Shown in pieces: positions 1-38,977 of a stretch of DNA of 64,000 nt (the first letter of the stretch is position 1; each line of letters begins with the position of its first letter). Made by a program: the position numbers and the translations under genes. This stretch comes from Deltaproteobacteria bacterium. Its GTDB lineage: Bacteria > Desulfobacterota > Binatia > HRBIN30 > JACQVA1. Where the stretch lies: NCBI GenBank assembly GCA_016178705.1, contig JACOST010000014.1:558001-622000 (forward strand), written 5' to 3'. The notes under the pieces were generated by a model that was given only the letters and a program-made list of their open reading frames with translations, did no database searches and was not told the DNA's origin.

Positions 1-108
1 GCGCTCGGTCGAGCGGCCGCGACGGCGTCCGACGACTCAGCCAGTGCCGATGTGCCCGAGGAACTGGTGCAAGCGATCGTCGCGGCTCACGCAAAACAGC
101 GTGGCTGA
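1..108 (+). CDS. C-terminal end of a truncated upstream gene
   Basis: Frame 1 is open from the window edge to a TGA at 106-108 and gives about 35 residues ending in VQAIVAAHAKQRG. The composition (Ala/Asp/Glu-rich, amphipathic end) is compatible with a real protein tail, but nothing identifies a family. The following toxin-antitoxin promoter starts only a few bases downstream, so this gene probably ends where the TA locus begins. Confidence 0.4.
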   Translation, partial: ALGRAAATASDDSASADVPEELVQAIVAAHAKQRG

Positions 109-7411: not shown

Positions 7412-9577
7412 TCAGCGGGTGGATGAGGAAGGTGCCTGCAGCCCCAGCTTCTTGAGGCGGCTGCGCAATGTGCTCGGCTGCAGTCCGAGGAGGCGCGCGG
7501 CGCCGTTCGGGCCTTCGATGACCCAGCTGCAGCGTTCGAGGATCGACAGAATGTGCTGCTTGCCTACCTCGTCGAGGCTACGGAGTTCAGATGTCTTGGG
7601 GTCCGGCGCGATGGCGGCGGGTGACTGGGGGGCTGAGCGTTGATCGCTTGGAGCGGCGACCACAAAATCCGGTCCGAGTTCGAGCATGGGTCCACTCGTC
7701 AACACCATGCTGCGCTCGATGATGTTCTGCAGCTCGCGGACGTTACCAGGCCAGTCGTAGGCCATCAGTTGCTCCATGGCTCGTTGCGATACCCCGTCGA
7801 TGTGCTTAGTCATCTCCCGCGCGAAACGCTCGACGAAGAAATGCACCAAGAGCGGAATGTCCTCCCGGCGCTCGCGCAGCGCCGGCACGCGGATCGGCAA
7901 CACGTTTACACGGAAGAACAGATCTGAGCGGAACCGACCTTGCGCCACCGCCTGCTGGAGGTCACGATTCGTCGCTGCGATCACACGGACATCCACCCGT
8001 CGCGTCTGGTTGCTACCGACCGGCTCGAACTCGCGCTCTTGCAACACGCGCAGGAGCTTCACTTGCGTCTCCGGCGCCAGCTCCCCGATCTCGTCTAGGA
8101 AGATGGTCCCTCCGTCCGCCAGCTCGAAGCGACCACTCCGCGCCGTCATCGCGCCGGTGAACGCACCTTTGACGTGACCGAACAGCTCGCTTTCCACGAG
8201 TCCCGCCGGGATCGCCGAGCAGTTCACTTTGACCAGCGGCCGCTCGCGTCTCGGGCTGCGATCGTGGATCGCCCGTGCGATGAGCTCTTTGCCGGTCCCC
8301 GTCTCGCCCAGAATCAGCACCGTCGAACTCGTCGGCGCTACGGTCTCGACCAGCGACAGCACCTGTCGCAGTTGCTGACTGCCGCCGACAATCTCGCGAA
8401 AGTTGTGGTCCTGCAGAATTTCCTCCTGCAGGTACACATTCTCCGCCGCCAACCGATCGCGCAGCTGTCGGACTTCCTCGTGTGCGAGACAGTCGTCCAG
8501 AGCCACCGCCACAGCGCCAGCCACCTGTTCGAGAAAATCGCGGCGCAAGCCCTCGTAGGCCCCTTTCCGCGCAGCCATGAAGAAGAGCACGCCCGGGCAG
8601 CGTTCGCCGCTCACCAGCGGCATCGCGCACAGCGATTCCATGCCCCCCTCGCTCATGACCCGGAACGTGATGGGAAAGCGTTCCCGCAGTTCGTCCCGCG
8701 AGGAGGTCACGACCCACTGACGATGCCGCAGGACCCAATCGCAGGCGGTTCCAGCTGCCGGCAGCACCGTGGGATGTGTCGGTTCTGCGTGCGCGCTCCG
8801 CGGTGTGAGAAGATGCCCCTGGAGTCGGTCGCCCTCAATGGGAAGCTCAATGCCGAAGCGCTCGGTCGGCACCAAATCCCGCAAGCACACGGCCATGGCG
8901 CCGAAGAGTTCGTCCCGCTCGAGGTGACGGCCGACGGCGGCGTTGACCTTGAGCAGCGCCTTGCGCTCCTGATCCAGGCGATCAAGCTGCTCAAACGCAA
9001 GGCAGCTGTCGAGCGCGATCGCCACCGAGTTTGCGATCTCGTCGAGCAAACGCTGGGGACAGCTTTCAAAGGCCCCCGTGGCGCGCGCCATAAATCCGAG
9101 TGCACCGAGGCAGCGGTCCTGCACCAGCAGCGGCAGGACGACAAGCGACTGCATACCCTCTTCGACGAGCCTTTGGTAAGTCGTCGGGAAACTCTCGCGG
9201 ACTTGCTCCGGCGACGACACCACCATCGGCTGCCGGTACTGAACAACCCATGCCGCGACCGATTCTTCCGGAATGCGCTCACCCTCGAACAACTTCACCA
9301 CACCGTGCACGGCGTAAACGCTGACTGCGGCTCCCTGCGAGTCGGGAACCAGGACGATGAGCCGCTCGGCAGGCAGCAGCCCCTCCATCTCTTCAGCGAT
9401 CGCCCCGAAGAGCCCTTCGCGATCGCGGTGCTTACTCAATGCTTGGCTGATGCCCAGCAGCGCCGCCAACGTATCCTGAGGCAATTCAGGCTGACGATTC
9501 GTCTCATCAATCGTGATCGGGCGTTGGGCGCGATCGACGTGTAGCGCGCGCAGTGGCGGGGAGTGCTCGTGGGCCAT
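7412..9577 (-). CDS. Sigma-54-dependent activator with two GAF domains
   Basis: 721 residues. Two GAF sensor domains (about 35-200 and 210-370) are followed by a coiled linker (RQLRDRLAAENVYLQEEI), an AAA+ domain (about 395-630) with Walker A GETGTGKE, the sigma-54 contact loop GAFTGA, Walker [13 protein letters not shown] and arginine finger FRVNVLP, and a Fis-type HTH (AARLLGLQPSTLRSRLKKLG) at the C-terminus. It should sense a small molecule and open sigma-54 promoters. No response-regulator receiver is present. No -24/-12 promoter was found nearby, so its targets are unknown. It diverges from the GlcG-cupin gene. Confidence 0.92.
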   Translation of the reverse strand: MAHEHSPPLRALHVDRAQRPITIDETNRQPELPQDTLAALLGISQALSKHRDREGLFGAIAEEMEGLLPAERLIVLVPDSQGAAVSVYAVHGVVKLFEGERIPEESVAAWVVQYRQPMVVSSPEQVRESFPTTYQRLVEEGMQSLVVLPLLVQDRCLGALGFMARATGAFESCPQRLLDEIANSVAIALDSCLAFEQLDRLDQERKALLKVNAAVGRHLERDELFGAMAVCLRDLVPTERFGIELPIEGDRLQGHLLTPRSAHAEPTHPTVLPAAGTACDWVLRHRQWVVTSSRDELRERFPITFRVMSEGGMESLCAMPLVSGERCPGVLFFMAARKGAYEGLRRDFLEQVAGAVAVALDDCLAHEEVRQLRDRLAAENVYLQEEILQDHNFREIVGGSQQLRQVLSLVETVAPTSSTVLILGETGTGKELIARAIHDRSPRRERPLVKVNCSAIPAGLVESELFGHVKGAFTGAMTARSGRFELADGGTIFLDEIGELAPETQVKLLRVLQEREFEPVGSNQTRRVDVRVIAATNRDLQQAVAQGRFRSDLFFRVNVLPIRVPALRERREDIPLLVHFFVERFAREMTKHIDGVSQRAMEQLMAYDWPGNVRELQNIIERSMVLTSGPMLELGPDFVVAAPSDQRSAPQSPAAIAPDPKTSELRSLDEVGKQHILSILERCSWVIEGPNGAARLLGLQPSTLRSRLKKLGLQAPSSSTR

Positions 9578-9796
9578 ACGTACGAATGGTTCTTGAACGG
9601 GCGCATTCTGACCGGGTCGTTGTGTTGATGCAAGCAGCGTCTATCACACAACAAAATCACGTTGTCTGCCATTGGTAGACCGCTCGAATTCCGGAGAGCG
9701 TCTGTGCCGCTGCTCGGACGTTCTCGATCCATCATCTCGACGTAGCGCGAAACCCCGCGGCCCCGGATGCATCGAAGGTGGCGGAGGATTGCGACC

Positions 9797-10678
9797 ATGA
9801 CGTCGTCCGTATATCGCTTGATTGCGCTGCCGCTTACGATCTTGATCGCCGGAGCGAGCGCTTCGGCGCAGATCATCGAGAGAAAGGGACTCACGCTGGA
9901 TGGCGCCAACTTGGTCATCGCCGCCGCGACGGCCGAGGCCAAGAAGCTCAACGCGCCCGGCGGTGTGATCGCGGTCGTCGACGACGGCGGAAACCTCATG
10001 GCGTTGGCGCGGCTTGACGGTACCTTTGCGGCCGGAGCCAACATCTCCATCGGCAAGGCCCGTACCGCCGTCCTATTCAAGAAGCCCACGAAAGTTTTCG
10101 AGGACATCATCAACAAGGGCCGGACGGCGATGACGGCGCTCAATGACTTCACGCCGCTGCAGGGGGGCATTCCGATCGAAGTCGACGGCGCGATCGTCGG
10201 CGGCGTCGGGGTCAGTGGCGCCGCCAGCGCCGCGCAGGACGAGGAGCTGGCGATTGCCGGCGCTGCGGCTGCAAAGAGTTTCATGACGGCGGCTAGCGCG
10301 AGCGTGCCGCCGGCAGTTTCGTTCTTCAACAAAGACGCGGTGGCGCAAGCCTTCGCCAAGGGGGCCGTGTTGTTCGACGGCGCGGGCCGTAACTACATGG
10401 TGCACGCCAGCCGCCGCGACAAGCCGGGCCTGGTCGAGATCCACACCAAGGACACCGACATCATTTACGTGCTCGACGGCGGCGCGACGTTCGTAACCGG
10501 CGGGACCATCGTCGACGGCAAAAGCACCGAGCCCGACGAAATCCGCGGCGCCAGCATCCGTGACGGCGACACGCGCCACATCGCGAAGGGCGACGTCATC
10601 ATCGTTCCCAACGGGACGCCGCACTGGTTCCGTGAAGTGCCGGGTGTGCTGACGTACTACGTCGTGAAGGTTCGCTGA
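9797..10678 (+). CDS. Secreted GlcG/HbpS-domain protein fused to a cupin
   Basis: 293 residues from ATG 9797, with GGAGG 11 nt upstream. Signal peptide (IALPLTILIAGASASAQ), then a GlcG/HbpS domain (about 25-165; GGVIAVVDDGGNLMALARLDG and GGIPIEVDGAIVGGVGVSG), then a cupin (about 180-293; GLVEIHTKDTDIIYVLDGGA and KGDVIIVPNGTPHWF). GlcG-type domains bind haem or small ligands; the cupin's HxxxxD and PxGxPHWF residues suggest a metal site. The fusion is exported. It precedes an SMP-30 protein by about 120 bp, with a palindromic repeat between them. Confidence 0.82.
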   Translation: MTSSVYRLIALPLTILIAGASASAQIIERKGLTLDGANLVIAAATAEAKKLNAPGGVIAVVDDGGNLMALARLDGTFAAGANISIGKARTAVLFKKPTKVFEDIINKGRTAMTALNDFTPLQGGIPIEVDGAIVGGVGVSGAASAAQDEELAIAGAAAAKSFMTAASASVPPAVSFFNKDAVAQAFAKGAVLFDGAGRNYMVHASRRDKPGLVEIHTKDTDIIYVLDGGATFVTGGTIVDGKSTEPDEIRGASIRDGDTRHIAKGDVIIVPNGTPHWFREVPGVLTYYVVKVR

Positions 10679-15128: not shown

Positions 15129-15216
15129 CTAGGCGATGGGGTCGAAACCTTCGTGCGCAGTCAGCATCGAAGTGCTGAACGACGCCGCTGCGTGCGGCCG
15201 CGAAGGGAGACTCATC

Positions 15217-16772: not shown

Positions 16773-16823
16773 ACGGCTCCCGGCGTCGGTGACACCGCCG
16801 GCCATTCGCAGCATCGAAGTACC

Positions 16824-18407
16824 GTGCAACAGTTACTCACCATGCCGATCGACGGTCCCGAACTTTTGCGAGCAATGCTCGTGTCGCTCGCGGCTCTCGC
16901 TGGCGCCGCGTTCGTCCACTGGGCGTTGCGCCGTGTCGGTCGCCGTCTTCCTCTCCTCATCGCCCGACGGTTGGGCTGGCAGCTGTCGCCGGGAATGCAG
17001 CTCCCGTGGCAGGGCATTCTCGAATTGACACTCCTCATCCCGAAGATCGGTGTCTGGATCGGTTCAATAGTGTTTGTCAGCGATCAGTTCGGCCCGCTGC
17101 AGCAAGCCCGTACGATGTTCACCCACGTGGTCGAGATGAGCATCACCATGCCACTCTTTGCGCTCAGCGGGCGCAGTTATTCTGCGATCGACGTGCTCGA
17201 ACTGCCGGCGGTGCTCGCGGCGCTCTGGGTCGGCGTGAGCGTGGTGACGCGTGGACTCAAGCTGCACGTGCTCAGTGCCGCCGGCATGGAGCGCGGCGCG
17301 CAAGAAGCGGTCGCACTGTTGACGCGCTACACGCTGATTTTTCTCGGCGCCATTGTGGTTCTGCAAACGTGGGGCATCGACGCCAGCTCGCTGACGTTCG
17401 TGGCCAGCGTGCTGGGTGTCGGCATCGGCTTCGGCTTGCAGCACATCGCCAACAACTTCGTCAGCGGCCTGGTCGTCAGCCTCGAACGCCCGATTCAGCC
17501 CGGCGATTTCGTCAAGGTCGGCGAGTGGACCGGCACGGTCGAAAAGATCGGGCCGCGCAACACCGAGATTCGCACCACCGACAACGTCAGCATTCTGGTT
17601 CCGAACTCGCGCTTTCTCGAAACCGAAGTGGTGAACTGGAGCCACGGCGATCCGTTGTCGCGGATTCAGGTTCCCGTCGGCGTCGCCTACGGTTCCAACA
17701 TCGCTCGCGTCCGCGCCGCCTTGCTCGAAGCCGCCCACAGCCATCCGGATGTTGTGCGCGATCCCCGGGCGAGCGTGGAGTTCCAAGCCTTTGGCGAGAG
17801 TGCCCTGCAGTTCGAGCTGAAGGTGTGGACGCGCGATCCGCGTATTCAAGACCGTCTCCGCAGCGACTTGAACTATCGCATCGAAGCCAACTTGCGCCGC
17901 GATAACATCCCGGTGCCGTTCCCGCAGCGCGACTTGCACCTGCGCTCGCCGCAACTCGACCAGATTCTCACCGCCTGGAGCCGGCAACAGTTCAGCGAAG
18001 CCGAGTTGGCCGCCTCCAATCATCGGAAAGCTCCGGTGGAGGTTCCGCAGGGGCCGCTCAACGGGAACGCGGTCGCGGACGACCTTGGGCCCCGCGCATG
18101 GAGTGACGAAGAGCTGCGCGCCGTCGTCGATCGTATGCGCGGCGCTGACGGCATCTCGATCAGCGACCGGCGCCATCTGTTGACGGTCTATCGCAGCTGC
18201 TTCGTCGGTCGCGAGGCCGTGGACTGGATGACGCGCGCGCTCGGCTTGACCCGGATCGAGGCGGTCGCGTTGGGGCAACTCCTGATGGAACGCGGCGAGA
18301 TGCATCATGTGCTCGACGAGCACGGATTCAAGGACAGCAACTTCTTCTACCGCTTCCGCGCCGACGGCGCTGATGCGATCGCGGCGGAGGCGAGGATTCG
18401 GGCGTGA
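16824..18407 (+). CDS. MscS-type mechanosensitive channel with C-terminal DEP domain
   Basis: 527 residues. Several N-terminal membrane helices lead into the MscS pore and beta domain (SVLGVGIGFGLQHIANNF, SLERPIQPGDFVKVGEW, PNSRFLETEVVNWS, then the alpha/beta C-terminal part to about 365). After a linker comes a DEP-like domain (about 425-520) with DGISISDRRHLLTVYRSCF, GREAVDWM and FKDSNFFYRFRADG. DEP domains usually mediate membrane or receptor targeting in signalling proteins, so this channel may be regulated through it. GTG 16824 is assumed; ATG 16842 is an alternative. Aquaporin lies downstream, suggesting osmotic function. Confidence 0.85.
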   Translation: MQQLLTMPIDGPELLRAMLVSLAALAGAAFVHWALRRVGRRLPLLIARRLGWQLSPGMQLPWQGILELTLLIPKIGVWIGSIVFVSDQFGPLQQARTMFTHVVEMSITMPLFALSGRSYSAIDVLELPAVLAALWVGVSVVTRGLKLHVLSAAGMERGAQEAVALLTRYTLIFLGAIVVLQTWGIDASSLTFVASVLGVGIGFGLQHIANNFVSGLVVSLERPIQPGDFVKVGEWTGTVEKIGPRNTEIRTTDNVSILVPNSRFLETEVVNWSHGDPLSRIQVPVGVAYGSNIARVRAALLEAAHSHPDVVRDPRASVEFQAFGESALQFELKVWTRDPRIQDRLRSDLNYRIEANLRRDNIPVPFPQRDLHLRSPQLDQILTAWSRQQFSEAELAASNHRKAPVEVPQGPLNGNAVADDLGPRAWSDEELRAVVDRMRGADGISISDRRHLLTVYRSCFVGREAVDWMTRALGLTRIEAVALGQLLMERGEMHHVLDEHGFKDSNFFYRFRADGADAIAAEARIRA

Positions 18408-20290: not shown

Positions 20291-20385
20291 ATCCGCTTAT
20301 GTCACATCAATGCTAGTGTTGCGCCACGCGTAACGCGCCGAGCGGCGCGGCATCCAAACCGATGATCAACGCGCAGGAGGGTTCC

Positions 20386-28565: not shown

Positions 28566-28937
28566 CTACAACGGTAGCACCAAGTGCGAGGGGAGATTGT
28601 CGAGCATGGTGCCGTCCGATGTGGCGAGTCGCCAACCTCTGTACATAGCGTGCGCGGCGATGAAGCGATCGAAGGGATCGCGGGTCCAGGTTAGATCGAG
28701 CGCGTGTCGAATGATTCCGGACAACGGCGGATCGTCAACCGTCCACCGTGGATCTTCGGCTGCCGCCTCGGCTGGGCGAGCGGTCTTGAAGACGCCGCGG
28801 CCGACCTCGTGCAGAAATTGCATCTCGAGCAGGGCCACCGGCGTGAACCGCAGCCTGCCGGTGTGCGGACCAAGCGGACGAGCGCGGCGGTGGCCGGCGA
28901 GCAGAAACAATACCGCGTTGGTGTCGAGCAAAATCAT
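28566..28937 (-). CDS. vapC: PIN-domain toxin (VapC-like)
   Basis: 123 residues. It begins ILLDTNAVLFLLAG (first catalytic Asp), has TPVALLEMQFL (Glu), RDPFDRFIAAHA and LATSDGTML, the order of PIN acidic residues. The ATG at 28937 overlaps the antitoxin stop by 4 bp (ATGA). A longer in-frame start at 28997 would overlap the antitoxin extensively and is rejected. Confidence 0.85.
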   Translation of the reverse strand: MILLDTNAVLFLLAGHRRARPLGPHTGRLRFTPVALLEMQFLHEVGRGVFKTARPAEAAAEDPRWTVDDPPLSGIIRHALDLTWTRDPFDRFIAAHAMYRGWRLATSDGTMLDNLPSHLVLPL

Positions 28938-29200
28938 CGTGGGCGTTTGGGGCTCCGCGGAGTCTTCAGTCGCAACCGATTGCCAGGTGCGGTCCATTCC
29001 CAGGTCCAGCCGATCTCCAGCAGTCGCGGGTCCGTGACCTGGAAGAAGGCCTTTGCGCGCGCTGAGGGGCGATTGGGCGCGTCAGCCACGAGGCGAAACC
29101 GCCGACCGCGACGCGCGATGATCACCGGCTCTCCACGCTCGGCGCGATCGAGCGCCCCGGCCAAACTCTCCCGCAACGTCGATACGGTGTACTGCTTCAT
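28934..29200 (-). CDS. Phd/YefM-type antitoxin
   Basis: 88 residues from ATG 29200: KQYTVSTLRESLAGALDRAE then GEPVIIARRGRRFRLV is the Phd fold, and the C-terminal part (DPRLLEIGWTWEW) is the toxin-wrapping arm. It precedes its PIN toxin with a 4-bp overlap. The operator palindrome at 29204-29217 lies 3 bp upstream of the start, arguing for autoregulation and for this start over the upstream ATG 29287. Confidence 0.82.
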   Translation of the reverse strand: MKQYTVSTLRESLAGALDRAERGEPVIIARRGRRFRLVADAPNRPSARAKAFFQVTDPRLLEIGWTWEWTAPGNRLRLKTPRSPKRPR

Positions 29201-29203
29201 ATG

Positions 29204-29217
29204 TGTACAGATGTACA
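29204..29217 (-). promoter_or_regulatory. Phd-VapC operator and short-leader promoter
   Basis: TGTACA-GA-TGTACA (plus strand) is a double hexamer palindrome ending 3 bp before the antitoxin ATG on the minus strand. On the minus strand TTGCAT, 17 bp, TACATC gives a plausible promoter whose -10 lies inside the palindrome. The leader would be shorter than 10 nt. Confidence 0.5.
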
Positions 29218-29267
29218 GCGGCCCGAAACCGGATGCAAACTGAGAGGGTGGTCGGCGCCGTTCGCGT

Positions 29268-30629
29268 TCAGGCCACAGGAAATTCAAACCCCTTCGGGAT
29301 TACTACGATGCCGTTGTCGGTGACTGTGAAGCGGGCGCGATCGCGTTCGAGGTCGTAGCCGATGCGCTCGCCGGCGGGGATGCGGACGCCTTTGTCGATG
29401 ATGGCGCGGCGGACTTTGGCGTGGCGGCCGATCTCGACATCGTCGAAGATGACGGCGTCTTCGACGTGCGCCCAACTGTGCACGAACACCCGCGGGCCGA
29501 GGATCGAGTGCTCGACGCGCGCGCCGCTGATGATGCAGCCGTTGCCGGCCAGTGAGTCGAGCAGTTGCCCTTCACGTTCGACGCCGCGGAATACCGTCTT
29601 CGCCGGCGGCGCTTGCACTTGGTAGGTGCGGATCGGCCACTCGGAGTCGTAGAGGTTGAACGTCGGGCTGACCGAAACCAAATCCATGTTCGCGTCGAAG
29701 TAACTGTCGAGCGTGCCAATGTCGCGCCAGTACTTCACCCCACCGCTGTTGCGATCGCGAAAAGGATAGGCGAAGACGCGGCGGCCGCTCTGCATCATGT
29801 GCGGGATGATGTCTTTGCCGAAGTCGTGGTGACTGTCGCGCACGGCATCGCCGCGTAGTTCGCGCACCAGCACGTCGGTGTTGAAGACGTAAATCCCCAT
29901 CGAGGCGAGCGCACAGTCGGGATTGTCCGGCATCGGCTCTGGATCGTCCGGCTTCTCGTGGAACGAGCGAATGCGCCACGCATCGTCGGCGGCCATGACG
30001 CCCAAGCGGCGGGCTTCCGCGCGTGGCACCTCGGTGCACGCCACGGTCAGCTCGGCGTGGCTGCGCAAGTGCGCCGCGATCATCTCGCTGTAGTCCATCT
30101 TGTAGATGTGATCGCCGCCGAGCACGAGCACCAGCGCCGGCCGCTCCATCTCGATGGTGTAGATGTTCTGGAACAACGCGTCGGCCGTGCCTTGATACCA
30201 GCGATCGCTCGATCGCTGCTGCGGGGGAATCACGTCGACGCCTTCGTCGAGCTCGCGCTGCAAAATGTTCCACGCCTGCTTGATGTGACGGTCGAGCGAA
30301 TACGACTTGTACTGCGTCAGCACGTGCATGCGCCGAATGCCGGAGTTGATGCAGTTGGAGAGCGTGAAGTCGATGATGCGGTAGTTGCCGCCGAACGGGA
30401 CCGCTGGCTTGGCGCGATCGCGGGTGAGCGGGGCGAGGCGTTCGCCCTGACCGCCGGCCAACACCATCGCTACCGTCTGTCGCAAGACGCTACCGACCTG
30501 AACGTTGTCGGTGCGAACCGTTGCATTGCGCAGCGCACGCCACTCGGTTGAGCGAATCGACTCGTGCGAGTCGTGCAGACGCCACGGCGACGGCGAATCG
30601 GTCCAGCGACTTTCGACTGCGACAGCCAT
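29268..30629 (-). CDS. glgC: Glucose-1-phosphate adenylyltransferase
   Basis: 453 residues. AMVLAGGQGERLAPLTRDRA is the nucleotidyltransferase loop, KPAVPFGGNYRIIDFTLSN follows, then LVLGGDHIYKMDY, FHEKPDD and GVKYWRDIGTLDSYF, with a C-terminal left-handed beta-helix. It makes ADP-glucose for glycogen synthesis. It starts 18 bp after the STAS-sigma gene on the same strand, so the two look like an operon. The N-terminal extension before VRTDNVQVGS is longer than usual; an internal start is possible. Confidence 0.93.
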   Translation of the reverse strand: MAVAVESRWTDSPSPWRLHDSHESIRSTEWRALRNATVRTDNVQVGSVLRQTVAMVLAGGQGERLAPLTRDRAKPAVPFGGNYRIIDFTLSNCINSGIRRMHVLTQYKSYSLDRHIKQAWNILQRELDEGVDVIPPQQRSSDRWYQGTADALFQNIYTIEMERPALVLVLGGDHIYKMDYSEMIAAHLRSHAELTVACTEVPRAEARRLGVMAADDAWRIRSFHEKPDDPEPMPDNPDCALASMGIYVFNTDVLVRELRGDAVRDSHHDFGKDIIPHMMQSGRRVFAYPFRDRNSGGVKYWRDIGTLDSYFDANMDLVSVSPTFNLYDSEWPIRTYQVQAPPAKTVFRGVEREGQLLDSLAGNGCIISGARVEHSILGPRVFVHSWAHVEDAVIFDDVEIGRHAKVRRAIIDKGVRIPAGERIGYDLERDRARFTVTDNGIVVIPKGFEFPVA

Positions 30630-30647
30630 TGTATGGCTCCGGCCCCC

Positions 30648-31544
30648 TTACGCCGTGTGTGCGGCGTTGAGCGGCATGGACTCCGCGGCTTGGAACTCGC
30701 GCTCCAACAACGTCCGCAGCGCTTGGCGAGCGCGGTGGAGGCGCACTTTGACGGCGTTGGGCGTGACGCCGAGCAGAGCGGCAACTTCCTCGGTGTCCAG
30801 CTCTTCGATGTCGCGCATCATCAGCACGGTGCGATAGGTCTCCGGCAGCCGTTCGATGCAGGCGCGGACCTGCGCGCGGGTCTCGCGCTGCTCCAGCAGG
30901 TCGGCGCTCGGCGCGCCCCATTGGCGCGGATCATCGACGTGGTACCCCTGGTCGTCGAAGCGAGGCAGCAACTCATCGATTGATTGCTCGGGCTTGCGGC
31001 GACGGCGGCGCAGCTTCATCAGCGCGGCGTTGACGACGATGCGATGCAGCCAGGTGGAGAGTTGCGAACCGCCGCTGAAGCTCTTGAGGCCGCTGAACGC
31101 CGACAGAAGCGCGTCTTGGACGGCATCGCGGGCGTCGTCTTCGCTCTTCATCAAACGGCGGGCGGTGGCGAGCATGCGGCCACCGTACTCGCGCACGAGC
31201 TGCTCGAAGGCTGGCTCATCGCCACTGCGCAGTCGTGCGAGCAGATTGCTCTCAGCGGTGGGCGCGTCGGCCTGCGCAGCCACGGTGTGATCGTTGCGCA
31301 ATAGCTCTTGGAGAAATCCGGAACAGCCGAGGAGGACCGCTCCATCGTGTTCGAGACGCCGCAAGCCCGCATGGGCTGCGCGGTCAACGAAGGTGACGCC
31401 AGCGAGGTCCAGAAACACCGGCTGCGATGATGCGAACATCTGTACTGATCCGCTCAGTTCGTCCATATCTCCCTCCGTGATGCGTCCCTCGACACGCAGC
31501 AGTGCTGCGCTACCGTTCTCACTTGCTCGCGTAATTCGAATCAT
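30648..31544 (-). CDS. STAS-domain/ECF sigma factor fusion
   Basis: 298 residues. The first 90 (VEGRITEGDMDELSGSV then PVFLDLAGVTFVDRAAHAGL) have the STAS/anti-anti-sigma layout, including the segment that normally carries the phosphorylated Ser: here FVDRAAHAGL has no Ser at that place. From about 100 comes an ECF sigma factor: sigma-2 (FEQLVREYGGRMLATARRLM ... DARDAVQDALLSAF) and sigma-4 (IERLPETYRTVLMMRDIEEL ... VAALLGVTPNAVKVRLHRAR). It would recruit RNA polymerase, with the STAS part perhaps binding a regulator. It appears to be co-transcribed with glgC. Confidence 0.88.
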   Translation of the reverse strand: MIRITRASENGSAALLRVEGRITEGDMDELSGSVQMFASSQPVFLDLAGVTFVDRAAHAGLRRLEHDGAVLLGCSGFLQELLRNDHTVAAQADAPTAESNLLARLRSGDEPAFEQLVREYGGRMLATARRLMKSEDDARDAVQDALLSAFSGLKSFSGGSQLSTWLHRIVVNAALMKLRRRRRKPEQSIDELLPRFDDQGYHVDDPRQWGAPSADLLEQRETRAQVRACIERLPETYRTVLMMRDIEELDTEEVAALLGVTPNAVKVRLHRARQALRTLLEREFQAAESMPLNAAHTA

Positions 31545-31668
31545 CTTGAGCTAGGGACAGAGCAACGGCTGTGCCGCACTGCTGAGCCGGCGCAACTAAC
31601 TGGAACGAGTGTGCGAGGAGATGAGATCCGCGAAACGGTCGTGAGGCAGCCCGCGAAATATCGCGGAT

Positions 31669-34977
<3,309 letters not shown>

Positions 34978-35103
34978 GACAGCGCCATCTTGTGGCTCGG
35001 CGAGTTCGCGCACACGTCCCAGTCTGCTTCCTTGCGATGCGCATATCTTGCACTCGGGAACAACCTGAGTCTACCCGCTCATCGGTGACGGCCCCTTCGG
35101 GTC

Positions 35104-35832
35104 TCAGACGACCGTGCGCAGGGCGCGGCGGGCGGTGCGCGTAACCAGGGTGGTCACCACGACGGTGGCCACCAAGCCGAGCCCGAGCACCGCGTAGTAG
35201 CCCGCGCCCTTTTCAACGGCGGCGCCGCCGGCGAGGGCGGCGACATCGCCGGCGAGTTTTCCATAGTAAACGTAGAGGACAGTGCCGGGCAGCATGCCGA
35301 GTGAGGCGACGACGTAATCAAGGAAGCGCACGTGAGTCAGCCCGAGCGTGTAGTTGAGGAGATTGAAGGGGAACACCGGCGACAGCCGGAGCAGAAACAC
35401 GATGCGGCGGCCCTGCGCGCCAACGGCGCGATCGATCGCGGCGAAACGCGCGTTGCCCGCCAGGCGTCGCTCAATGGCGGACCGCGCGATGTAGCGCGAC
35501 ACGCAAAACGCCGCCGATGCGCCGAGCGTCGCGGCGATGAAGACGTACACAACGCCCGCACCCAATCCGAAGATCGCTCCCGCCGCCAAGGTCAGCAGCG
35601 AACCCGGCAGAAAGGCGACCGTCGCGAGCGCGTAACCGATGATGAATACGACCGGGCCCAACGCGCCGAGGCCGTTCACCCAGGTCGCGAACTGCGGAAT
35701 GTACCCGCCAGCTTGGCGCGCCAGCACGAGGACCCCGGTCAACGCGGCCAAAATCACGACGGCTCGCACGAGCGTGAGTCGTTGCGGTGCTCGGTCGCTC
35801 ATCGCCGCGGGGTTGTCGATCAAGTCTTCCAT
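35104..35832 (-). CDS. TVP38/TMEM64 (DedA-like) membrane protein
   Basis: 242 residues with several membrane helices. ALATVAFLPGSLLTLAAGAIFG and LLRLSPVFPFNLLNYTLGLT are the VTT-domain signatures (FxPGxxLxxxxGxxFG and RxxPxxPxxLxNYxxG). This family includes DedA-type lipid scramblases or transporters. GAGGAG lies just before ATG 35832. It is divergent from the glucose dehydrogenase gene, with about 90 bp between them. Confidence 0.9.
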   Translation of the reverse strand: MEDLIDNPAAMSDRAPQRLTLVRAVVILAALTGVLVLARQAGGYIPQFATWVNGLGALGPVVFIIGYALATVAFLPGSLLTLAAGAIFGLGAGVVYVFIAATLGASAAFCVSRYIARSAIERRLAGNARFAAIDRAVGAQGRRIVFLLRLSPVFPFNLLNYTLGLTHVRFLDYVVASLGMLPGTVLYVYYGKLAGDVAALAGGAAVEKGAGYYAVLGLGLVATVVVTTLVTRTARRALRTVV

Positions 35833-35922
35833 TCGTCGCTTCTCCTCTTCAGCATTGGGTGCCGCAGACGCAATCCTGGTTTCACCCTGGAAACCTGTGC
35901 CGAACGGTGGCATCGAAGGGCC

Positions 35923-37032
35923 ATGAAAGCCATTGCCGTCTTCCCGAAGACCCGCACGGCGGATCTGATCGTTCACCCGGCGCCGACGATCTCGGCACCG
36001 ACCGACGTCAAGTTGCGCATACTCGAGGTGGGGATCTGCGGCACCGACCGCGAAATCTGTACGTTCGAGTATGGGACGCCGCCGACCGGCTCGGACTATC
36101 TCGTCATTGGACACGAATCGCTCGGTGAAGTAGTCGAGATCGGTTCCGCGGTCTCACGGGTCAAGGTTGGCGATCTGGTGGTGCCGATGGTCCGTCGCCC
36201 GTGCGCGCACGCGGAGTGCGTTGCCTGTCGCGCCGGGCGACAAGACTTTTGTTACACCGGCGACTTCACCGAGCGCGGTATCGGCGGCCGGCACGGTTTC
36301 ATGACGGAGTTCGTGGTCGACGATCAGCAGTACATGAACGTCGTGCCGCACACGTTGCGCGACGTGGCGATTCTGGTCGAGCCGCTGACGATCGCGGAAA
36401 AGGCGCTCACCCAGATCTTTCAAGTGCAGAAGCGATTGCCGTGGGCGACTCCGCCCGAGCCTGGCCAAGCCCGCGATCATGGCCACCGGGCGGTCGTGCT
36501 CGGCGCCGGACCGGTGGGCTTGCTGGGTGCGATGGCCCTGCGGGTAGCGGGGTTGGAGACCTACGTCTACTCGCGTGAGCCGGCGCCCAATCCGAAATCC
36601 CAACTCGTCGAAGCCATCGGCGCGCACTACGTGTCGTCTGCCACCGACTCAGTCGCGCAACTCGCCGCGCGGGTCGGCAACATCGACGTCGTGTATGAAG
36701 CGACAGGTGCGTCAGGCCTGTCGTTCGAGGTGATGAAAGTTCTCGGCATCAACGGGGTGTTCGTTTTCACCGGAGTGCCGGGTCGCAAGGCGCCGATCGA
36801 GGTCGACACCGATCTGATCATGCGCGACGCGGTGCTCAAGAATCAGGTGATCTTCGGCACCGTCAACGCCGGACGCGAGACGTTCGAAGATGCCATTCGC
36901 GACCTCGGCATCTTCGTGCAGCGCTGGCCGCAGGCGGTCGCCTCGCTGATTACTGGTCGGTTTCCGATCGAAGCCTATCGCGACTTGTTGTTCGGCCAGC
37001 CGACGGGCATCAAGAATGTCATCCGCCCGTGA
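35923..37032 (+). CDS. Glucose 1-dehydrogenase-like zinc-dependent medium-chain dehydrogenase
   Basis: 369 residues. Zn ligands CGTDREI and GHESLGEVVEIG; structural-zinc-like Cys/His cluster RRPCAHAECVACRAGRQDFC; substrate loop TGDFTERGIGGRHGFM; Rossmann motif VLGAGPVGLLGAMA. The order and the TERGIGGRHGF motif match archaeal-type glucose dehydrogenases. It should oxidise glucose (or another aldose) to the lactone. The stop overlaps the next gene by 17 bp. With the SMP-30 lactonase-like protein, a glucose-to-gluconate route is possible. Confidence 0.88.
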   Translation: MKAIAVFPKTRTADLIVHPAPTISAPTDVKLRILEVGICGTDREICTFEYGTPPTGSDYLVIGHESLGEVVEIGSAVSRVKVGDLVVPMVRRPCAHAECVACRAGRQDFCYTGDFTERGIGGRHGFMTEFVVDDQQYMNVVPHTLRDVAILVEPLTIAEKALTQIFQVQKRLPWATPPEPGQARDHGHRAVVLGAGPVGLLGAMALRVAGLETYVYSREPAPNPKSQLVEAIGAHYVSSATDSVAQLAARVGNIDVVYEATGASGLSFEVMKVLGINGVFVFTGVPGRKAPIEVDTDLIMRDAVLKNQVIFGTVNAGRETFEDAIRDLGIFVQRWPQAVASLITGRFPIEAYRDLLFGQPTGIKNVIRP

Positions 37033-38977
37033 TCCAAAAGCCTATGATCCGAAAGCCGAGTGGCTCGAGGCCGACGGTCTCGGCGGGTTCGCTTCGGGGA
37101 CCGTCGCTGGAACGCGCACTCGGCGCTACCACGCCCTCCTACTCGCGGCGACCACAGCGCCCACCGGACGAATGGTCCTGGTCAATGGATTCGATGCGTG
37201 GGTGGAGACGGCGAGCGAACGGTTTGCGATCTCGTCGCAGGCGTACACGCCGGGCGTGATCCATCCTGATGGCGCACGGCGGATCTATCACATGGCCATC
37301 GATCCGTGGCCACGCTGGCGCTTTCGCCTCGGTGACGGCACCGTGGTCGAACAAGAGATCTTCGTGCCGCACGGCACGGCCATGGCTGTCGTATGCTGGC
37401 ACCTCGCCGAGCACGCTGAGGGCAGTGAGCGCGCGATCCTATCGATCCGTCCGTTTCTCTCGGGGCGCGACTATCATTCACTGCATCACGAAAACCCCGC
37501 GTTTCGATTCGAGGCCGAACGGCACAGTGAACGATTGGTGTGGCGTCCGTACCCAGGTGTCCCGGCTGTCATCGCGCTCACCAATGGCGAGTACCTCCAC
37601 CAGCCAGACTGGTATCGCAGTTTCACGTACGACGCCGAGCGCGCACGCGGGCTCGACTCCACCGAGGACCTCGCGTCGCCGGGCGTCTTTCGCTGGGATC
37701 TGACGGCCGCCGACGCGGTGTGGATTGTCGCGGCCGAAGGCTGCGGTCGTGACGCACTCAAAGCTGACGAATCGGCAGCTGACTGCGCGGCGCGATTGCG
37801 CGCGGTCGAAACCCGCCGGCGAAAATTCCCGTCGCGTTTGCACCGCGCTGCCGACGCCTACATCGTCGAGCGCGAGCGGGGCAAAACGATCGTCGCCGGC
37901 TACCCATGGTTCACCGATTGGGGCCGCGACACCTTCATCGCCATGCGCGGACTCTGTCTCGCCACCGGCCGACTCGACGACGCGCGCGCCATCCTGCTCG
38001 ACTGGGCGGCCGCGGTTTCCGAGGGCATGCTGCCCAATCGCTTCCCCGATCACGGCGCCGCTCCGGAGTTCAACGCGGTCGACGCGTCGCTGTGGTTCAT
38101 CATCGCGGTGCACGATTTTCTCCAGGTGGCGAAGGCGAACAAGAAGCGCGTGACCGCGCGCGATCAAAAGACATTGCAGGCGGCGATGACGAGTATCTTG
38201 GACGGCTACGCGAAGGGCACGCGCTACGGCATTCGGCTCGACGCCGACGGCTTGATCGCCGCCGGCGAACCGGGCGTGCAACTGACTTGGATGGATGCGA
38301 AGGTCGGTGACTGGGTGGTGACACCGCGCAGCGGCAAGCCGGTCGAGATCCAAGCTCTGTGGCTCAATGCGCTGCGCATCGCCGGCGCGGGTTCCGAACG
38401 ATGGGCGTCAGTCTTTGCGCGCGGCTACGAATCGTTCCGCGCCCGCTTCTGGAACGAAGCGGGTGGCTATCTCTACGACGTGGTCGATTGCGATCATCGC
38501 GCCGGCACGGTCGACCCGGCGTTCCGGCCGAACCAGATCTTCGCGGTGGGCGGTCTCCCCTACCCCGTGCTCGATGGTGACCGCGCTCGCCGTGTTGTAG
38601 CTGCGGTTGAAGAGCGTCTGCTGACACCAATCGGTTTGCGTTCGCTGGCTCCCGGCGAAACGGGATACATCGGACGCTACCAAGGCGGCGTGCGCGAGCG
38701 TGACGGTGCCTATCACCAAGGGACCGTATGGCCATGGCTGCTGGGGCCGTTCGTCGAGGCGTGGGTGCGCGTGCGTGGCGACACCACCGCCGCCAAGCGC
38801 GAGGCGCGCACCAAATTTCTTGAGCCTTTGTTGCGTCAGTTGGACGGTGCGGCGCTCGGCCACATCGCCGAGGTTGCCGACGGTGATCCACCGCATACGC
38901 CAGGAGGCTGCCCGTTCCAGGCGTGGTCGGTCGGTGAAGCCCTCCGGCTCGACCAGGTTGTGCTCAAGACCGACTAG
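37016..38977 (+). CDS. Amylo-alpha-1,6-glucosidase / glycogen debranching enzyme
   Basis: 653 residues. The N-terminal part (EWLEADGLGGFASGTVAG then RRYHALLLAA) and GYPWFTDWGRDTFIAMRGL, GMLPNRFPDHG, NAVDASLWFI and QLTWMDAKVGDW are the signatures of bacterial GDE/amylo-alpha-1,6-glucosidases; YHQGTVWPWLLGPF lies at the C-terminal end. It removes branch glucose from glycogen, releasing free glucose. The 17-bp overlap with glucose dehydrogenase couples it to glucose oxidation. Confidence 0.92.
   Translation: MSSARDPKAYDPKAEWLEADGLGGFASGTVAGTRTRRYHALLLAATTAPTGRMVLVNGFDAWVETASERFAISSQAYTPGVIHPDGARRIYHMAIDPWPRWRFRLGDGTVVEQEIFVPHGTAMAVVCWHLAEHAEGSERAILSIRPFLSGRDYHSLHHENPAFRFEAERHSERLVWRPYPGVPAVIALTNGEYLHQPDWYRSFTYDAERARGLDSTEDLASPGVFRWDLTAADAVWIVAAEGCGRDALKADESAADCAARLRAVETRRRKFPSRLHRAADAYIVERERGKTIVAGYPWFTDWGRDTFIAMRGLCLATGRLDDARAILLDWAAAVSEGMLPNRFPDHGAAPEFNAVDASLWFIIAVHDFLQVAKANKKRVTARDQKTLQAAMTSILDGYAKGTRYGIRLDADGLIAAGEPGVQLTWMDAKVGDWVVTPRSGKPVEIQALWLNALRIAGAGSERWASVFARGYESFRARFWNEAGGYLYDVVDCDHRAGTVDPAFRPNQIFAVGGLPYPVLDGDRARRVVAAVEERLLTPIGLRSLAPGETGYIGRYQGGVRERDGAYHQGTVWPWLLGPFVEAWVRVRGDTTAAKREARTKFLEPLLRQLDGAALGHIAEVADGDPPHTPGGCPFQAWSVGEALRLDQVVLKTD

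Follow-up and report, generated by a model that had tools for sequence, protein, structure and literature searches.

A STAS-ECF sigma factor fusion gene with features of sigma-54 dependence and a predicted sugar and stress regulon in a Binatia genome

A STAS domain joined to an ECF sigma factor

The window analyzed here, a 64,000-nucleotide stretch of contig JACOST010000014.1 (positions 558,001 to 622,000) from a Deltaproteobacteria bacterium of the class Binatia, carries on its minus strand a gene (30648-31544) whose product combines a STAS domain with an extracytoplasmic function (ECF) sigma factor. Positions are those of the window unless a contig or locus is named. Minus-strand transcription runs from the gene for a sigma-54 activator (35013-31669) across a 124-bp gap to the fusion gene (31544-30648), and after a further 18 bp to glgC (30629-29268), which encodes glucose-1-phosphate adenylyltransferase (TIGR02091 match of 490 bits; cut-off, 425). 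A first-pass annotation of this DNA had described a single polypeptide joining an anti-anti-sigma fold to an ECF sigma factor, and the continuous open reading frame of 298 amino acids bears this out.

The ECF identity of the C-terminal part (sigma2 and sigma4, residues 97-281; 30702-31256, minus strand) is unambiguous. The Pfam models Sigma70_r2 (7.5e-15) and Sigma70_r4_2 (1.3e-18) both matched the C-terminal two thirds of the protein above their cut-offs, solved ECF sigma factors were matched with E values down to 7e-23, and TIGR02937 scored 97.9 bits against a cut-off of 42.9. No sigma3 model was present among the families listed for the fusion, which had sigma2 and sigma4 only, as for an ECF sigma factor. 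Prediction of the full-length structure from one sequence was poor (predicted local distance difference test score [pLDDT], 50.5) and supports no claim made here.

The distribution of the fusion was examined in a class sample of 148 genomes, 38 of which matched a profile of the fusion at 1e-45 (referred to here as ECF genomes). The surroundings of 38 ECF copies were read, namely, 37 from elsewhere and that of the window, with some 1e-45 matches left out. Genes in these loci were called with a custom gene caller that misplaced some start codons, which were corrected for STAS genes only. Eleven copies were fused in frame to a STAS domain, eight had a separate STAS gene just upstream (overlapping the ECF gene by 1 to 4 bases in 5/8), and in 19 no STAS gene of the same strand directly preceded the ECF gene. 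These 19 include one locus with a weak, divergent STAS-like gene (L084, 18.8 bits) and one that begins at a contig end, where the missing STAS may reflect truncation (L087). Since 11/38 copies are fused and a further 8/38 have the separate upstream gene, the fusion of STAS with this ECF factor is more than chance. On a tree of 37 ECF copies (L095 was too short to be included), the fused, separate and absent states were interspersed, with 12 changes required by parsimony; the states were nevertheless more clustered than shuffled labels, of which 1 in 200 gave an equally low count. Among the matches listed from a phylum sample of 395 genomes, most of them apparently outside the class, a level of 1e-70 was reached only by two class members, G000 (the genome of the window) and G017. 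A single-query scan of genome contigs returned one remote ECF match, from Dyadobacter, at 25% identity.

The N-terminal part of the fusion (residues 1-85; 31290-31544, minus strand) is a STAS domain as judged by the family profile, by Pfam matches in relatives and by its modeled fold. The fusion's own Pfam scores lie under the curated cut-offs (STAS_2, 18.6 bits against 29.2; STAS, 15.8 against 22.6), and each of these two models matched 17/19 family members at an E value of 0.01 or lower, the window included. The family profile also matched the solved anti-sigma antagonists TM1442 (3e-7) and SpoIIAA (6e-5). When the domain was folded alone from one sequence, the best of five models had a pLDDT of 83.8 (range, 83.8 to 37.0); it superimposed on chain H of the RsbV/RsbW entry 6m36 with a Z score of 10.8 (root mean square deviation of 2.1 over 84 residues) and on TM1442 with a Z score of 9.9. 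The STAS-like character that the first-pass annotation had assigned to residues 1-95 is therefore upheld for residues 1-85.

The phosphorylated serine of SpoIIAA and RsbV, which we take to follow directly upon a conserved aspartate (here D54), is replaced in the window by arginine (R55). No serine occupied this place in any of the 19 family STAS domains (0/19); the residue was R, A, G, N, E, T, P or K. The exceptions to note are a single threonine, one domain without the aspartate (L093), and one with a serine one place later (L040). No convincing gene for an RsbW-type kinase was found near the STAS genes in a search of the 19 STAS-bearing genomes with PF13581/HATPase_c_2 at an E value of 1e-6 or lower, in which several contigs were short. 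The lone HATPase_c_2 match on a STAS-ECF contig was weak (G007, 36 bits, in a frame of 588 residues about 12 kb away), and matches somewhere in the genome were present in 18/19, with none in G100. Both the missing serine and the probable lack of control by a standard kinase had been proposed in the first-pass annotation; the former holds throughout the family, and the search results favor the latter.

A predicted sigma-54-type promoter of the fusion gene

A promoter sequence of the sigma-54 -24/-12 type, GCGGCACAGCCGTTGCT, lies upstream of the fusion gene (31561-31577, minus strand), its strict core starting 31 nucleotides (nt) before the ATG. The strict core GG[CT][AG][CT]N5TTGC was found within 90 nt before the ATG in 15/19 STAS genes, compared with 8/679 other called genes (Fisher 6e-22), and near the start of 5/19 ECF genes without STAS. 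In all but one of these 15 STAS genes, its distance to the ATG, measured from its first base, was 26 to 31 nt. Alignment of 14 promoters, a set chosen for the box, left only GG, TTGC and the ATG invariant, and the leader varied. The genome also encodes rpoN (447 bits). With its -24 GG/-12 GC box, an activator gene alongside and rpoN in the genome, the fusion has the features of a gene predicted to be sigma-54 dependent. At sigma-54 promoters, the -12 GC is followed by the transcription start at a distance of about 12 nt. Since the box lies 26 to 31 nt before the ATG, this rule would place the start of the fusion mRNA a few nucleotides before the ATG, making it nearly leaderless.

Further upstream, about 110 to 120 bp from the fusion gene, a conserved palindrome, CGCGAAATATCGCG (31652-31665), is predicted to be a probable activator-binding (enhancer) site. 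Its typical form is ATCCGCGANATNTCGCGG; CGCGA-N4-TCGCG with at most one mismatch was present in 16/19 STAS loci (9 of them exact), 102 to 232 nt upstream, against a background of 0.06 per 200 bp. The palindrome adjoins the gene for the activator, a protein of 1,114 amino acids (31669-35013, minus strand) with GAF/PAS sensor domains, an AAA+ domain (PF00158) and a Fis-type helix-turn-helix (HTH) domain. Members of this activator family were found in 14/19 STAS loci, 12 of them within 1 kb of the ECF part, compared with 3/19 of the STAS-less loci (p 8e-4). For six relatives, Pfam confirmed an AAA+ sigma-54 activator with GAF/PAS or PAS domains and a Fis-type HTH.

A recurrent promoter motif and the predicted ECF regulon

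A second conserved element, GNAAC[C/G]-N14/15-GC[A/G]TC[C/G]AA, was derived de novo and stands before sugar-oxidation genes, stress genes and some anti-sigma genes. It was spotted by eye, as GAAACC-N14-GCATCGAA, upstream of genes that recur around the ECF gene in several genomes; automatic discovery of gapped words gave no clear motif. In the 37 ECF loci from other genomes, a loose form of the motif occurred 18 times at a spacing of 14 and 14 times at a spacing of 15, compared with 0 to 7 times at each of 12 other spacings (10-23). With the window included, 27/36 sites lay near the start of a gene on the same strand, as against 2/26 at control spacings (p 9e-8). The 19 loci without STAS had not contributed to the initial sighting of the motif; they gave 16 sites at spacings 14-15, of which 10 were near a start, and a total of 11 at 16 other spacings, of which 2 were. 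Of the 16 strict sites in the genome of the window, 5 lie in a 38-kb interval around the fusion (P 7e-8, with the interval picked post hoc). Based on a density of 199 sites per 161.8 Mb (28 of the 38 ECF genomes, summed by hand), 0.7 strict sites were expected in 594 kb, where 11 were seen. Whole-genome counts over the 148 genomes were noisy and are not used as proof. The first part of the motif contains AAC, the criterion for an ECF -35 element; the second contains C[A/G]TC, mostly CATC, where the -10 criterion is CGT. We infer that the ECF part of the fusion reads this motif. The pattern of an autoregulated ECF operon was not seen at the fusion gene, which has a motif score of 7.2 and lies about 30 kb from the zf-HC2 gene described below.

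Within the window, one predicted target is a glucose dehydrogenase-like gene (PF16912; 35923-37032, plus strand), preceded by GAAACC-N14-GCATCGAA (35890-35917, plus strand). Its end is overlapped by a gene for a glycogen debranching enzyme (GDE_N, GDE_C; 37016-38977, plus strand), predicted to share its transcript. A weaker motif (35855-35883, minus strand; score 14.1 of 16.8) stands before the divergent gene for a VTT-domain membrane protein (35104-35844). Further plus-strand motifs precede a series of genes for HbpS-like (9797), SMP-30/gluconolactonase-like (10796) and MGH1/GH63-like (12408) proteins (motif at 9749-9776), genes of the DoxX and glyoxalase families (15144-15171), an MscS-type channel gene at 16824 (16791-16818, one mismatch) and a GMC oxidoreductase gene (20330-20357). 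Taken together, these predicted targets, identified by Pfam, would serve sugar oxidation, glycogen use and the response to osmotic or general stress. A second GAF-domain sigma-54 activator (721 amino acids; 7412-9577), related to the one beside the fusion, is encoded divergently from the motif-bearing gene at 9797.

The association with glucose dehydrogenase extends to other genomes. The gene was present in 20/38 ECF genomes compared with 4/110 others (p 7e-11), and in 12/20 ECF genomes with both genes the two lay within 10 kb of each other. Outside family f5, a group with a more distant ECF subfamily, a motif scoring at least 14.8 preceded the dehydrogenase gene in 9/12 ECF genomes, and dehydrogenase genes off the contig of the ECF gene also carried it (G034, G013, G047 and G045). 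In this comparison the gene start of G129 was misplaced. Of the genomes that have the dehydrogenase without the ECF gene, 0/4 had the motif; G054 among them scored 12.9 in that position. In the window, 5 nt separate the end of the -10 part from the dehydrogenase ATG, and in six other genomes the distance is 6 to 8 nt. Such spacing suggests that the mRNAs of target genes, too, are leaderless. In 7/8 f5 genomes with both genes, the ECF gene is no more than about 2.1 kb away from that for glucose dehydrogenase (for example, contigs G132:C431 and G147:C264), and some of the dehydrogenase genes there show by eye a different upstream pattern, GCATCC-N15-NCATCNAA.

A candidate soluble anti-sigma factor is encoded at the left edge of the window, where positions 1-108 (plus strand) form the 3' end of a gene for an 82-amino-acid zf-HC2 protein; the gene (G000:C14:557860-558108) begins 141 bp beyond the left end of the window. 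One of the five strict motif sites around the fusion also lies beyond the window. Found by a genome-wide scan, it precedes a gene for a pyridine nucleotide-disulphide oxidoreductase, after which comes this zf-HC2 gene. The own copy scored 103 bits, the next 29, and PF13490 matched it with 38 bits. In 13 aligned proteins of the 26 found, H29, C33 and C36 of the H-x3-C-x2-C motif were invariant, and binding to the sigma factor is predicted. Among ECF loci, motif scores of at least 13 preceded 8/26 zf-HC2 genes compared with 38/696 other genes (p 1e-4). Several STAS-less relatives have zf-HC2 directly downstream of the ECF gene, and two STAS-less ECF genes (L035, 9553-10800; L082, 490-1702) have zf-HC2 genes on both sides.

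A proposed two-sigma cascade and its alternatives

The reading that we favor, with a probability of about two in three, is a cascade of two sigma factors. The GAF/PAS activator (31669-35013) would sense a signal, bind the palindrome upstream of the fusion gene, and drive sigma-54 RNA polymerase at 31561-31577 to produce a STAS-ECF mRNA with almost no leader. In this genome, that mRNA probably runs on into glgC. The ECF part would then transcribe a regulon from promoters of the form defined above, including glucose dehydrogenase with the debranching enzyme, the GMC oxidoreductase, the gluconolactonase-like protein, the MGH1/GH63-like glycosidase, the MscS channel, DoxX and others. The operon of the soluble zf-HC2 anti-sigma factor is probably part of the regulon and would close a negative feedback loop. 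The STAS module would modulate sigma activity by binding a partner. The fusion, the STAS and ECF folds, the conserved box, the palindrome, the motif and the neighboring genes are features of the DNA as it stands; that they act as named, and every role given to STAS, we infer from them.

Several observations weigh against this cascade. The strict sigma-54 box was missing near the start of 4/19 STAS genes, and the activator was not seen in 5/19 STAS loci, three of which have just 950 to 3,483 bases of contig upstream. In half of the ECF loci read (19/38), the ECF gene is not directly preceded by a STAS gene, and STAS is thus dispensable to the ECF factor. The zf-HC2 gene was equally frequent with and without STAS (11/19 loci each) and is thus not specifically tied to it. 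The genome-wide excess of the motif was modest, with 16 sites in the genome of the window compared with 7 for a spacing of 18-19 and 5 for the reversed pattern, and the motif was missing before the dehydrogenase gene in 3/12 ECF genomes outside f5 (G041, G017 and G040) and in 8/8 f5 ECF genomes. Finally, the loci without STAS are no strict hold-out for the motif, because the scores of every locus were already known when the motif was given its final form.

The most likely role of STAS is that of a docking module independent of phosphorylation, with the anti-sigma factor or the activator as candidate partners. This role is favored because the fold is kept, the serine is gone, no convincing kinase gene lies nearby, and the presence of STAS tracks the activator gene and the sigma-54 box (15/19 versus 5/19) rather than zf-HC2. 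It is possible, if doubtful, that STAS is instead the remnant, passive or in decay, of an earlier gene for partner switching and that control is exerted solely by sigma-54 transcription and zf-HC2. The loci without STAS, the interspersion of states on the tree and the missing phosphorylatable serine would fit such a remnant, but a domain of 85 to 90 amino acids that retains conserved positions in 19 loci, fused or separate, is unexpected under decay. Equally tentative is the proposal that STAS is a sensing extension that restrains the ECF factor and releases it on binding of a small molecule or of the sigma-54 activator, in line with proposals made on other ECF extensions. The co-occurrence of STAS with the activator gene (14/19 versus 3/19) speaks for it, as does a review according to which the small number of ECF extensions investigated so far appear to be ligand-binding (PMC8103513). 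Against it, eight loci have separate STAS genes, so a covalent tether is not required.

The cascade can also be given a sharper form, in which a leaderless STAS-ECF protein carries a permanently unphosphorylated anti-anti-sigma STAS domain in cis that competes with zf-HC2 made by the regulon. The level of expression, not phosphorylation, would then set the switch, and the module would run a program of sugar oxidation, glycogen use and osmotic stress across the class. We consider this full form speculative and rather unlikely.

Less probable still is direct control of storage metabolism with glgC as the key target through partner binding, as the first-pass annotation had suggested. The operon itself is credible: the gap measures 18 bp, no terminator-like site was found, and cotranscription of the fusion gene with glgC is plausible. 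The pairing, however, is not conserved. At a threshold of 1e-90, glgC was present in 88/148 class genomes, including 29/38 ECF genomes; it lay near the ECF gene in 2/38, the window (18 bp) and G018 (about 6.4 kb), a count that is a lower bound as short draft contigs can hide linkage. It adjoined 1/11 STAS-ECF fusions, that of the window. The outcome that the first-pass annotation had named as refuting its view, a fusion unlinked to glgC in other genomes, was thus obtained as far as direct linkage is concerned. Neither glgC (score 10.7) nor the fusion gene (7.2) is preceded by an ECF motif, the median of 722 genes being 9.6, and the genome carries a second glgC (C14:703459) whose product is 47% identical to the window copy. 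As a conserved target, glgC was ruled out by this linkage and by the lack of an ECF motif before it. A direct link of the system to glycogen synthesis is not general, because glgC is rarely beside the sigma gene in relatives.

Other evidence points toward storage metabolism in a looser sense. The GlgC of the window shares 69 to 73% identity with those of G018, G068 and G013 and no more than 54% with the other copies listed, and all four genomes with this type carry the ECF gene. The G018 copy follows, after about 130 bp, a gene that has an ECF motif (score 15.6). Through this arrangement and the debranching enzyme in the predicted regulon, a looser connection to sugar storage survives, and glgC may occasionally be recruited to the system without being part of its core. 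Three side observations concern the surroundings of glgC. The second glgC lies about 12 kb from rpoN (G000:C14:717027). In G068, the window-type glgC (contig C43; L098, 9474-10724) stands just 3' of genes for a response regulator-like protein and a GAF-like sensor on the same strand, with domains identified by eye. Downstream of glgC in the window, a gene for a PIN-domain (VapC-like) toxin (28566-28997) lies beside a possible antitoxin reading frame (28934-29287), also recognized by eye.

Classical partner switching, in which a distant RsbW-type kinase binds and phosphorylates STAS, is very improbable: the closeness of the fold to RsbV and the HATPase_c_2 matches somewhere in 18/19 STAS-bearing genomes are outweighed by the lack of a serine directly after the aspartate in 19/19 domains, the single weak G007 match on a STAS-ECF contig and the absence of any match in G100, with the shortness of several contigs to be kept in mind.

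Relation to known systems

If the two-sigma cascade is correct, the fusion would be a concrete N-terminal ECF extension with a recognizable fold, a predicted upstream switch (activator, enhancer and promoter) and a predicted target motif, and it would join partner-switching modules, ECF sigma factors and sigma-54 in one circuit. Given the predicted switch and target motif, most steps could be tested in a heterologous host. The first-pass annotation had known of no described system of this kind; its entry on the fusion named neither the activator and the sigma-54 promoter nor the anti-sigma gene and the regulon motif. A STAS-ECF fusion was indeed not found described in the open literature searched, which did not cover the numbered ECF classification, but sigma-54-driven ECF factors and ECF factors with extensions are known. 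For N-terminal extensions, the review states that mechanistic information does not exist (PMC8103513). Small soluble anti-sigma factors have also been described (PMC8103513, PMC3426412), and in one report a STAS protein was raised on overexpression of an ECF factor, the two proteins being unfused (PMC12826043). In a further paper, the word STAS is an author's name (PMC3597554).

The upstream half of the cascade resembles the HrpRS-RpoN-HrpL cascade of plant-associated bacteria and the P2 promoter of Escherichia coli rpoE (RpoN with QseF), in which transcription of an ECF gene depends on RpoN (PMC8103513); the likeness is that an RpoN-dependent activator drives an ECF sigma gene, which is predicted here. 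HrpL is described as an orphan ECF factor (PMC8103513). In the window system, STAS is present as a domain or a partner, a zinc-finger anti-sigma factor is encoded, the predicted regulon is another one, and the start is predicted to be near-leaderless. ECF41, ECF42 and their kin share with the fusion an extra domain joined to the sigma factor (PMC3426412, PMC8103513). The extensions studied there are C-terminal (SnoaL_2 or tetratricopeptide), in contrast to the N-terminal, STAS-type extension of the window, which is often a separate gene instead. With SpoIIAA and RsbV the system has the STAS fold in common; it differs in lacking the phosphorylatable serine and a convincing nearby kinase gene and in being fused to, or paired with, an ECF sigma factor. 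The general stress response of Alphaproteobacteria through EcfG, NepR and PhyR is likewise led by an ECF factor under partner control (PMC8103513). There, the switch is made by the response regulator PhyR, which mimics EcfG, and the available text of the review mentions neither a STAS domain nor a sigma-54 step (PMC8103513).

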